From Bacteroidales bacterium (lineage in GTDB: Bacteria; Bacteroidota; Bacteroidia; Bacteroidales; UBA932): 64,000 nt of DNA. A model generated the notes under the pieces. It had not been told where the DNA came from and did not search any database. It saw only the letters and a program-made list of their open reading frames with translations. The DNA lies in NCBI GenBank assembly GCA_017627955.1, contig JAGAFU010000055.1, positions 1 through 64,000 of the forward strand, read 5' to 3'. Each line of letters starts with the position of its first letter. The first letter of the stretch is position 1. Below, piece after piece: positions 18,902-34,245 of the stretch. A program made the translations under genes and the position numbers.

Positions 18902-19849
18902 ATGAGGAACCGTTATCCGGCAGTGGTGTTGTTACTGGTTCTGGCCGTCATTTCACTGGCGGCGGCAGACTTGTTGTGCGGTGGGGCCGGGTTCGGCGTT
19001 CCAGACAAGGTGATATTCCTTAAGCTGCGGTTTCCGAGGATGTTGACAGCCCTTCTTGCCGGAGCCTCACTTGCCTTGGCCGGCCTTCAGATGCAGACAA
19101 TATTCCGGAACCCCTTGGCCGATCCCCACATCATGGGTGTCAGCGCGGGGGCAGGTACCGGGGCCGCGGTCGCCACTTTGCTGATCGGGACGTCGCTTCC
19201 GGCCGCGTTGTCCGGGCTGACGGTGGTCTCGGCGGCTTTCATTGGGGCATTGCTGACCTCTGCTCTCGTTGTCCTGGTCGCCACGAGAGTCCGTGGAGCT
19301 ACCACTCTGCTGATTTTCGGCGTGATGCTTGGCTTCGTGTTCAGCGCGGTCACCTCCATCCTTGAATATTCAGCCAATGCCGAGAGCCTTAAAGTCTTTT
19401 ACAGCTGGTCAGCCGGCAGCTTCATTGGGGGTGGATATGGCGGGATAATGATCATGGCAATTGCCATTCTGGCCGGCTTGGTACTGGCCCTTGTCAACAA
19501 TCGCAGGCTAGATGTGGCCCTTTTCGGGGAAGACTACGCTTCAATGACCGGAGTCAGTCCAGTCCGTACCAGAAATATCTCAATGATAGGAAGTTGCCTC
19601 ATGGCTGGAGCGGTCACAGCATTCTGCGGCCCGTTGGGTTTCGTCGGGATTGTGGCCCCACACGTCGCAAGAGCGGTGGCCGGATCATCCTTACATATCA
19701 GGACAATTCCTGTGACACTCTTGACTGGAGCCGGTCTTTCCGTCATGGCGGATATCCTCTCGCAAGTTTTCAGCCGTCCGCTTCCGGTCGGCAGCACCAT
19801 GGCGATAATCGGCGCCCCGATAATCATTTATATTCTTTTACGGAAATGA
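18902..19849 (+). CDS. FecCD/BtuC-type ABC transporter permease
   Basis: This 315-aa integral membrane protein (about 9-10 helices) belongs to the FecCD family that moves cobalamin, haem or ferric siderophores across the inner membrane. Recognisable segments are GASLALAGLQMQTIFRNPLA, DPHIMGVSAGAGTGA and near the end CGPLGFVGIVAPHVAR, which contacts the ATPase. I use the ATG after the -7 element rather than the earlier TTG. The stop overlaps the ATPase start (ATGA). No periplasmic binding-protein gene is adjacent. The divergent TonB receptor may serve the same substrate. Confidence 0.93.
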   Translation: MRNRYPAVVLLLVLAVISLAAADLLCGGAGFGVPDKVIFLKLRFPRMLTALLAGASLALAGLQMQTIFRNPLADPHIMGVSAGAGTGAAVATLLIGTSLPAALSGLTVVSAAFIGALLTSALVVLVATRVRGATTLLIFGVMLGFVFSAVTSILEYSANAESLKVFYSWSAGSFIGGGYGGIMIMAIAILAGLVLALVNNRRLDVALFGEDYASMTGVSPVRTRNISMIGSCLMAGAVTAFCGPLGFVGIVAPHVARAVAGSSLHIRTIPVTLLTGAGLSVMADILSQVFSRPLPVGSTMAIIGAPIIIYILLRK

Positions 19850-20520
19850 TAAAGGCTTCTGACATAGTAGTTGGATATCTGTCCACGGCGAGAGGACGGC
19901 TCCTGCCGAGCATTTACCCGGATAGGGCGCGAAGCGCAGCGAGGCAGGAGCCGTACCTCTCGCCAGTAGTCGCCGGGCCTTTGTCCTTTGAATATGCGGA
20001 CGGGGAGTGTGTCATGCTCAGAGGCCGGAACGGTAGCGGCAAGACGACCTTGATGAAGACCATAACAGGGTTGCTGCCACCGTTGTCCGGAACCCTCGAG
20101 ACCGGTGGCGTAGCGGTTCTTGTCCCGACTCGTATTCCCAAAGTCAAAGGATTCACAGTCAGTGATTTCATTAGGACTGGGATGCTGGCGGAGTCCGGTT
20201 CTTTCAGAAAACTTGACAGGAGAGCGGAGAGCCGGGCCCGGGAGGCTATCCGTATGATGGAGTTGAACCAATTGGCGGATAAGGATTTAAGCCGGATCAG
20301 TGACGGAGAGTTCCAGAAAGCCTGTGTCGCCGCGGCGCTAACCCGCAGGGCAAATGTCCTTATGCTTGACGAGCCCACCGCTTTCCTTGATGTGGAGAAC
20401 AGGGTAATGGTCCTTCAGACCCTTCAGCGCATAGCTCACGAGACCGGAACCACCATTATCTTCTCCACCCACGACATCCACGACGGCGCCCTCTACTCCG
20501 ACTCCGTCCTCGTCCTCTGA
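19846..20520 (+). CDS. ABC transporter ATP-binding protein carrying an in-frame palindromic insertion
   Basis: The start is the ATG overlapping the permease stop, giving 224 aa. The nucleotide-binding domain shows Walker A (RGRNGSGKTTLMK), a degenerate signature loop (LSRISDGEFQKA in place of LSGGQ), Walker B (NVLMLDEPTAFLD) and the H-loop (IIFSTHD). It would power the FecCD-type permease. Residues about 15-39, between the first beta strand and the strand before Walker A, are foreign in composition (Arg/Ala/Pro/Tyr) and are encoded by a 74-bp palindromic repeat element. The insertion keeps the frame and lies in a surface loop position, so the protein may still fold. Confidence 0.88.
   Translation: MIKASDIVVGYLSTARGRLLPSIYPDRARSAARQEPYLSPVVAGPLSFEYADGECVMLRGRNGSGKTTLMKTITGLLPPLSGTLETGGVAVLVPTRIPKVKGFTVSDFIRTGMLAESGSFRKLDRRAESRAREAIRMMELNQLADKDLSRISDGEFQKACVAAALTRRANVLMLDEPTAFLDVENRVMVLQTLQRIAHETGTTIIFSTHDIHDGALYSDSVLVL
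19889..19962 (+). repeat. Palindromic repeat element inserted inside the ABC ATPase gene
   Basis: The arms 19889-19908 and 19942-19962 are inverted repeats over about 20 bp with one bulged base (12 bp perfect: ACGGCTCCTGCC with its complement). The 35-bp centre, 19908-19942, is in reverse orientation the same as 33511-33545 in a distant gene except for 3 positions, although the arms differ between the two copies. The element is read through in frame as part of the protein. Confidence 0.8.
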
Positions 20521-33375: not shown

Positions 33376-34245
33376 ATGAGCGTTATTGACGAGAAAACAA
33401 TCGCCGGCCTCCTAGAGCGGATAGGTGTCCTGAAGAAAGAACTTTCCAATTTGGAATCTGCTATTCTGGCTATCAAACTTGAGCCGGAGACGGCAAGTCC
33501 CGACTCAGGCTCGCTGCGCTCCGCGCCCTATCCGGGAGAATGCTCGCCTGAGCCGGACTTGACCGTCTCCGAAAGTCCGGAGGCTGCTCCGGCTGAATCG
33601 CCAGAACCTGTGGCGCAACCTGTCGAGGAACCTGAGATGCAACTTGTCGATGAACCAGTGGAGCAACCTGTCATCCTGAGCGAAGCGAAGGATCTCGAAG
33701 CGAAGGATCTCCCTGCGGATGAGGATCTTCCAGCGGGCGAGCCGGAAGAGGAACCTATCGACATCGCTCCGGTGGATGACACCCCCATCGACATATCAAT
33801 ATCTGACATAGAGGATCTTCCAGAGGAATTAGGGAACCGTGGTTCGACTCCTGTCCGGTCCCTGAGCGGAGCCGAAGGGCCGGCCCCCATCACCTCTGCA
33901 CTTGGCCAAAAAATCGAGGAACCCAAGAAATCAATCCTTGACACCGCGAAAGCCGACACCGCCGTGATGGATGTCATGGCCGAGAAACAGGCTTGGAGAA
34001 CGGATCGTCCCGGAATGCCTGTGAAAAACATCATCAGCGCCATCTCCTTGAACGACAGGGTGTATCTCATCAATACCCTTTTCGGAGAGGATCCGATGCT
34101 CTTCCAGGAGACGATCGGCAAATTCAACGCGATGGGCTCCCTGTCGGAAGCCCTTGCGTTTATCGCTGAAAATCACTCGGATTGGGATATGAGCTCAGAG
34201 CCTGTGTACAGGCTCATGATGGCTGTCCGCCGGAAACTGGCCTGA
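33376..34245 (+). CDS. Hypothetical protein with acidic linker built largely from inserted repeats
   Basis: This 289-aa protein has a short N-terminal helical region (ERIGVLKKELSNLESAILAI, about 14-33), a long Pro/Glu/Asp-rich low-complexity linker (about 38-185) and a conserved-looking C-terminal domain (about 205-289; MPVKNIISAISLNDRVYLIN, then WDMSSEPVYRLMMAVRRKL). The C-terminal domain resembles a Bacteroidetes-specific domain of unknown function. The linker contains three different repeat-element insertions, all in frame. It ends by overlapping the rsmI start (TGATG). I do not know its function. Confidence 0.75.
   Translation: MSVIDEKTIAGLLERIGVLKKELSNLESAILAIKLEPETASPDSGSLRSAPYPGECSPEPDLTVSESPEAAPAESPEPVAQPVEEPEMQLVDEPVEQPVILSEAKDLEAKDLPADEDLPAGEPEEEPIDIAPVDDTPIDISISDIEDLPEELGNRGSTPVRSLSGAEGPAPITSALGQKIEEPKKSILDTAKADTAVMDVMAEKQAWRTDRPGMPVKNIISAISLNDRVYLINTLFGEDPMLFQETIGKFNAMGSLSEALAFIAENHSDWDMSSEPVYRLMMAVRRKLA
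33495..33560 (+). repeat. Palindromic repeat element inside the 33376 gene (second copy of the 35-bp core)
   Basis: The arms 33495-33510 and 33546-33560 pair imperfectly (7 bp perfect next to the core: CTCAGGC/GCCTGAG). The 35-bp core 33511-33545 matches, in opposite orientation, 19908-19942 within the ABC ATPase gene with 3 differences. The arms differ from those of the other copy yet are still complementary to each other. Confidence 0.78.
33669..33710 (+). repeat. Family A repeat, in frame inside the 33376 gene
   Basis: A full 27-bp family A unit (33669-33695) is followed by a partial 15-bp duplication of its end (33696-33710). Both lengths are multiples of three, and the translation runs on as VILSEAKDLEAKDL. 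Confidence 0.85.
33857..33879 (+). repeat. Family C repeat (GGTCCCTGAGCGGAG...) inside the 33376 gene
   Basis: This 23-bp repeat starts GGTCCCTGAGCGGAG and ends CCGAAGGG. It recurs in reverse orientation with one difference at 35225-35247 in the ComEA-like gene. It is read in frame as VRSLSGAEG and is flanked by CCGG on both sides. Confidence 0.75.

Follow-up and report, generated by a model that had tools for sequence, protein, structure and literature searches.

Rickettsia and Wolbachia have palindromes that invade protein-coding sequence. Those of Rickettsia, the Rickettsia palindromic elements (RPEs), are read in several frames. We know of no settled account of how these elements move. 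In the part of PMC3767692 cited here, RPEs are described as palindromes of 100-150 bp that sit in pre-existing open reading frames (ORFs) and leave the frame intact, and their insertions as solvent-exposed and possibly located at hotspots. According to the section of PMC6649704 that treats them, RPEs lose their repeat identity over time; that section also suggests repeat conversion by template switching for the coding palindromes of nematomorphs. REPs are described, in the cited portion of PMC3733652, as carrying GTAG/CGTC tags.

The window, which is the whole 64,000-nucleotide stretch of Bacteroidales DNA that was analysed, contains two copies of a hairpin element (Table 1). A preliminary description had reported two nearly identical 35-bp cores in opposite orientation, flanked by self-complementary arms and translated in frame within two unrelated genes. 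The cores, 19908-19942 (+) and 33511-33545 (-), are indeed identical at 32 of 35 positions, and no third match to the core occurs within the 64-kb window when up to 10 mismatches are allowed. The reading frame is kept through both copies, in agreement with the suggested in-frame translation. The arms pair with themselves as described, but their lengths had been underestimated. The minimum-energy DNA fold of copy 1 has 23 bp with two single-base bulges (z = -6.57) instead of about 20 bp with one bulge, and that of copy 2 has 25 bp over its full span (z = -4.82) instead of about 15 bp at 33495-33560. For neither copy was any of 200 shuffles as good. The covariance model described below matches copy 1 at 19884-19967 (95.2 bits) and copy 2 at 33486-33569 (81.2 bits). 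The host of copy 1 has a PF00005 match, the NCBIfam ABC ATPase models scoring below their own cut-offs; the host protein of copy 2 matches no Pfam family at E <= 0.001.

Table 1. Positions in the window of the two element copies, their parts and their host genes.
Feature	Position	Strand	Evidence
Copy 1, hairpin element in frame in ABC ATPase gene	19885..19967	+	DNA fold, covariance model
Copy 1 conserved head CGAGC...GCGAG, three-way junction	19907..19943	+	Columns mostly (near-)invariant, 21 copies
Copy 1 head mini-hairpin CCC-GGATA-GGG; contains TAG, a stop in one element frame	19917..19927	+	Fold, covariation
Copy 1 head mini-hairpin CGC-GAA-GCG	19928..19936	+	Fold, covariation
Copy 1 inner left arm, partner 19943-19954	19896..19907	+	Pairing; 19899 co-changes with 19951 in L210
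Copy 1 inner right arm	19943..19954	+	Pairing; L210 comparison
Copy 1 host gene: ABC transporter ATPase	19849..20520	+	ORF, PF00005, element-free orthologs
Copy 2 of hairpin element, orientation opposite to host gene	33485..33571	-	DNA fold, covariance model
Copy 2 conserved head	33510..33546	-	Core match
Copy 2 host gene: 289-aa protein of unknown family	33376..34245	+	ORF

The core is not confined to these two places. A pattern search allowing up to 3 mismatches finds 23 copies in the 2.58-Mb assembly (G000), and the reversed pattern finds none in the same assembly at the same tolerance. A covariance model trained on 21 copies also reports 23 places. Of these, 22 coincide with core copies and the last, L091, is a weak and degenerate match; the core copy without a report of its own belongs to a tandem pair on contig C40. 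In that pair (L089, G000:C40:6568-6654) the two element heads are 55 nt apart. Within the genus, 101 genomes were sampled, and the model matches 26 of them at E <= 0.001. In a less sensitive search of the order, in which 11 candidates were scored per genome and 11 of this genome's copies were recovered, this genome was the only match among 393 genomes from 206 genera; neither of the two other genomes of this genus in that sample matched. A collection scan gave 98 stretches, and the 80 listed ones are all from Bacteroidales/Bacteroidia MAGs, several of them labelled rumen or omasum. Carriage by viruses or plasmids was considered and rejected: two head patterns were searched in viral contigs without an exact match, and one plasmid match (E = 0.008, 81% identity) is taken as chance. 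A divergent subfamily in G019 and G045 has the head GGAGCATTT-CCCGTACAGGG and long near-perfect arms, and all ten of its fetched, best-scoring copies lie within ORFs. G085 bears a further head type. Four of the five copies fetched from G006 lie outside ORFs or at an ORF edge, and two copies from that genome (L395, L396) have about 22-24 extra bases inside the second head mini-hairpin.

The outer arms of the element pair over about 20-30 bp. Inward of them lie an invariant C-G pair, mostly G.A positions (CGA/GAG) and two more pairs, and innermost is a three-way head with the two mini-hairpins. The head is nearly invariant, and the 22-nt left arms have a mean pairwise identity of 0.40 over 121 copies, a set collected by a head pattern. 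Despite this divergence the arms stay complementary: their positions are paired in 83.1% of cases, against 34-47% after sliding the partner. In the 21 aligned copies, 22 arm pairs have changed on both sides, and doubly changed cells number 112 compared with 40.4 after shuffling, a value reached in none of 500 shuffles. The number of additional pair types discriminates less well, as 12 of 500 shuffles attain the observed value. Compensatory change in the arms is strong, and the covariation reported earlier stands; its cause may be either the selection proposed at that time or correction of the palindrome during replication.

The same concerted change is seen when copies at one site are compared between genomes. 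In nine such comparisons 192 arm pairs have a base on each side; 147 of them are unchanged, and 23 have changed on both sides and still pair, where about 2 would be expected if the sides changed independently. Seven have changed on one side yet remain paired, 15 are broken, and 6 more are gapped. The cleanest case is copy 1 compared with its relative L210. The two sequences differ at 101 of 896 aligned bases (11% divergent), and within the 83 nt of the element the only changes are 19899 G>A and 19951 C>T, which pair with each other. Some same-site pairs may be separate insertions, which weakens the reading that arms changed in place; candidates are the sites with reversed orientation (L072, L078, L085) and one pair with different outer arms (L083/L301). 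In the NadE gene the whole hairpin is identical in G000 and G090 (L075, L304) with flanks differing by about 12-17%, which could reflect conservation, conversion or recent re-insertion.

These comparisons bear on whether selection is needed at all. After insertion, template switching during replication could copy one arm onto the other and extend the foot of the stem, and, if acting, would keep any palindrome perfect. We regard this reading as a tentative possibility. The single paired change in copy 1, the long near-perfect arms of the G019/G045 subfamily and the similar mechanism proposed for nematomorph coding palindromes in the relevant section of PMC6649704 are what it would predict. However, the head can stay constant while arms at the same site change: the ATPase copies of G000 and G090, if they descend from one insertion, have no difference in 36 head positions but six compensated and four broken arm pairs. 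Template switching also leaves the mobility of the element unexplained.

The arms show a modest strand asymmetry. Read on the element's own strand, G.T pairs outnumber A.C pairs by 81 to 47; the excess is modest in non-redundant arms (53 to 30, sign-flip p = 0.028). It does not depend on the direction of the gene (29 to 15 and 41 to 20), and the 25 copies outside ORFs have none (11 G.T and 12 A.C). This is weak evidence that the relevant form is a single strand, folded and of one polarity. An RNA acting within the mRNA was rejected as a candidate, because the asymmetry of in-gene copies follows the element and not the gene. A fixed functional RNA or regulatory structure that is not a mobile element would account for the strong conservation of structure, but it is highly improbable, given that copies are scattered in unrelated genes on either strand, that their presence varies between relatives and that Rfam has no match in the window at gathering scores.

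In this genome the element lives mainly inside genes. Twenty of the 23 matches to the covariance model are in frame within ORFs of at least 217 aa, and the in-gene copies use five of the six frames. The other three places (L086, L088, L089) are in no recognised gene, L086 being upstream of L-arabinose isomerase. Hosts identified by family matches, which in many genes flank the insert on both sides, are FolC, CitX, a HAD phosphatase, NadE, MetH (two copies), DsbD, TilS, a U32 peptidase, LplA, 3-dehydroquinate synthase, a class-III aminotransferase, an MBOAT protein, a GH95-like protein and a response regulator with LytTR. Other genes we take, from their sequence, to be UvrA, RsmH, RadA, YfhO-like, MnmA and MATE-like. 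The two MetH elements (L076, L077) have opposite orientations and are both in frame. In the named genomes, copies were scored as genic when an ORF extended 60 aa or more beyond them on each side. Of 69 unique copies with a flank of 300 nt or more, 51 qualified, as did 251 of 400 random stretches; 8 copies near locus ends were omitted. Genes are thus not avoided, and they are only mildly over-represented.

Judged by frame and the absence of stops, the inserts appear to be translated. The first mini-hairpin contains a stop codon in one element frame, and among 106 copies (21 without a qualifying ORF) both in-gene copies in that frame carry GACAGGG instead, as do none of the other 83 in-gene copies; a third GACAGGG copy lies outside any qualifying ORF. 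Because any ORF in the TAG frame is necessarily free of TAG, the information lies in the reverse association alone. In element frame (+,2) all 17 in-gene copies have A at ATTTW, where copies in other frames have A and T. A stop codon was considered as the cause of this preference and rejected, since none accounts for the A.

Comparison of orthologous sites bears directly on mobility. The ATPase site is occupied in G090, G049 and the relative L210, and five orthologs (G042, G072, G033, G017, G093) have short linkers of 3-5 residues at the place of ATPase residues 15-39, the stretch that the preliminary description had proposed as an insertion. Several sites are common to G000 and G090. The orientation is flipped at L072, L078 and L085, which indicates that those loops were hit more than once. 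With orthologous sites empty, occupied or reversed, the element is mobile by this comparison, as had been suggested.

Partial arms or half elements (L081 and L080 in G042, L078 in G033, the L175 site in G788 and G603) may be read as deletion leftovers. At the L175 site, G788 and G603 retain a left arm without a head, and comparison with G667 and G049 favours, without proving, deletion over a pre-insertion source. At G049:C83:656-1043 an element lies between one flank that matches the G000 glycoside hydrolase site (L084) at 100% identity and another that matches the DsbD site (L078) at 92%. This mosaic might stem from recombination at the element or from a chimeric contig, or the joined query might have produced it as a mapping effect.

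Other short repeats occupy some of these loops instead. A second family (GTCATCCTGAGCGAAGCGAAGGATC) is found at 33670-33710 in the window and at many related loci, in frame in genes and read as VILSEAKDL or CHSERSEES; it shares some of the element's loops and has short copy-variable arms around a GAGCGAAG head. In-frame repeats (GGTCCCCCCTCTTAACGTGCCGAGGGTGGC and similar; L175, L458, L459, L490) pile up in one loop of the MATE-like gene and lengthen it by tens of residues.

The moving unit could be delimited in one subfamily. At unrelated sites its copies share an identical or nearly identical block that ends in abrupt divergence, giving a unit of 75 nt (25 codons) at 11 sites after orthologs were merged. 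The flank analysis of these sites used a 75-nt search pattern; when it was repeated without fixing the length, all 14 distinct flank contexts had the same 75-nt unit, so that by this comparison the length is constant. Upon removal of 75 nt from L176 the protein is collinear with the empty G774 ortholog, and the alignment is gap-free across 60 residues. Other subfamilies look about 81 and 90 nt long by eye, and the insertion in the RsmH-like gene of G019 appears, by manual count, to be 87 nt.

Immediately outside the unit, the first five flank positions pair with the opposite flank at 91, 73, 91, 91 and 82% of the 11 sites, and beyond them pairing drops to 27, 9, 9 and 9%. In total, 47 of 55 positions pair, compared with 22.0 after shuffling and a maximum of 38 in 20,000 shuffles. 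The five-base run is perfect at six of the 11 sites, one site pairs at only two positions, and two sites in this genome (L082, L088) have the same flank sequence and thus may not be independent. The sharp stop after five positions is a further point against template switching, as slow correction should taper. Direct target repeats are near chance in 83 non-redundant copies (at least 5 bp, 10 against 6.8 shuffled; at least 4 bp, 28 against 27.3), and the best empty site, in the MnmA-like gene of G774, has a target that is not palindromic; this comparison is between divergent orthologs, at about 74% identity. Of the ends and target duplication that comparison with empty orthologs had been expected to define, the ends are thus given by the 75-nt unit of one subfamily, and a direct duplication is not seen. 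A DDE-type MITE with terminal inverted repeats would likewise be short, non-autonomous and bounded by inverted repeats, but the near-chance direct repeats and the unconserved arm sequence make this reading very implausible.

Two simpler origins of the arms and flanks were set aside. The near-perfect arms and the L081/L080 sites in G042 first suggested a snap-back, in which the arms are an inverted copy of the target. However, copies at unrelated sites share their inner arms, and only about the outermost five pairs are site-specific; the arms therefore travel with the unit. A fixed inverted duplication of 5 nt upon insertion is disfavoured because the net gain of 80 nt would break the frame. 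The observations may instead point to a new kind of integration, in which a 75-nt hairpin enters without disturbing the frame, leaves no direct duplication and comes to lie between inverted, site-specific flanks of about five base pairs. These flanks would arise either by targeting of a 10-bp palindrome or by one-sided rewriting of five bases. We put this forward tentatively; if it is true, the genome has a steady supply of insertions of 25-30 residues in core proteins.

No mobilising gene was found, the head being absent beside the 20 Y1 loci inspected. A REP-like repeat moved on single-stranded hairpins by a Y1 (HUH, IS200/IS605-type) RAYT transposase is nonetheless worth weighing, because such an enzyme suits the hairpin form, the absent target duplication and the single-strand asymmetry. 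A PF01797 (Y1) match at E <= 0.001 is present in all 26 carriers and in 52 of 75 non-carriers (p = 0.0007, uncorrected for relatedness). Against this, GTAG and CGTC at the foot of the stem occur in 1-6 of 83 copies per motif and foot, compared with 3-5 of 166 in a far control, and the highest count, CGTC at the left foot, is 6 of 83 against 5 of 166 (p = 0.19). Stem-foot positions, where an integron attC site would have its conserved R boxes, carry 0.01-0.15 bits. Around the 20 Y1 loci, from seven genomes and including two of this genome's six, the best head match has at least 10 mismatches of 28, and two of seven Y1 loci scanned for inverted repeats show a AAAACGYGTAGC hairpin instead. In addition, REPs are mainly extragenic according to the cited portion of PMC3733652. 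We consider a RAYT-moved repeat unlikely; as a proven mobiliser Y1/RAYT was rejected, since the evidence is association only, which is a lead and not a link. Inverted repeats of AAAACGYGTAGC near the Y1 transposase genes L348 and L351 look like a separate repeat family of GTAG type.

The element is, with good probability, a non-autonomous mobile palindromic element. A protein acting in trans may recognise the folded head on one single strand, in which case the arms need only pair. Insertion would be net frame-neutral, so that copies in tolerant loops would be translated and survive. The arms might then be kept paired by hairpin-templated correction in replication, by selection for mobility or by both. 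The roughly five paired flank bases would be explained if the unit enters the middle of a short palindrome; alternatively, insertion or a later step might convert about five bases on one side to the complement of those on the other. Ordinary deletions would in time remove copies, in some cases with partial arms left behind.

In a genus of gut Bacteroidales, a mobile hairpin of about 80 bases has spread, in this genome mostly within genes that appear intact, where it lengthens the protein by about 25 to 30 amino acids and preserves the reading frame. It is a case of mobile DNA repeatedly lengthening core enzymes, and a clear one of hairpin arms evolving in concert within coding sequence. The many copies, the 75-nt unit, the empty, occupied and reversed sites and the inverted-flank signature make the mechanism directly testable in this genus. 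A title-level literature search, with subscription journals mostly outside its range, found no title on such an element in Bacteroidales.

Among known systems, REP/RAYT pairs resemble the element in having hairpin repeats possibly recognised as single strands, and differ in that here there is no clear GTAG/CGTC tag, no head by the inspected Y1 genes and a mostly intragenic location in this genome. The nematomorph mitochondrial palindromes, as the relevant section of PMC6649704 presents them, likewise have self-complementary arms in translated genes that are apparently kept paired, but here one head is shared and copies are dispersed to unrelated genes. The mitochondrial palindromic elements of Magnusiomyces, associated with translational bypassing, also interrupt genes (same section of PMC6649704); they are untranslated, whereas here the frame and the lack of stops point to translation. 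The closest parallel is with the palindromic elements of Rickettsia and Wolbachia, which in the cited parts of the sources are repeated palindromes in frame in pre-existing genes. The parallel drawn in the preliminary description holds for behaviour, the use of several frames included, without making this element an RPE. Its unit of 75 nt in one subfamily and its folded hairpins of 83 and 87 nt are shorter than the 100-150 bp given for RPEs in PMC3767692, and its arms stay paired, in contrast to the loss of repeat identity described in PMC6649704. Its host is a Bacteroidales genus (the 80 listed loci being Bacteroidales/Bacteroidia MAGs) and not one of the Rickettsiales. The element thus appears to work like an RPE in a new lineage, a likeness of behaviour seen in sequence comparison. 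Unlike the RPEs as we know them, it combines a three-way head that is conserved with arms that covary, a frame-neutral unit of 75 nt and inverted flanks of a few bases.
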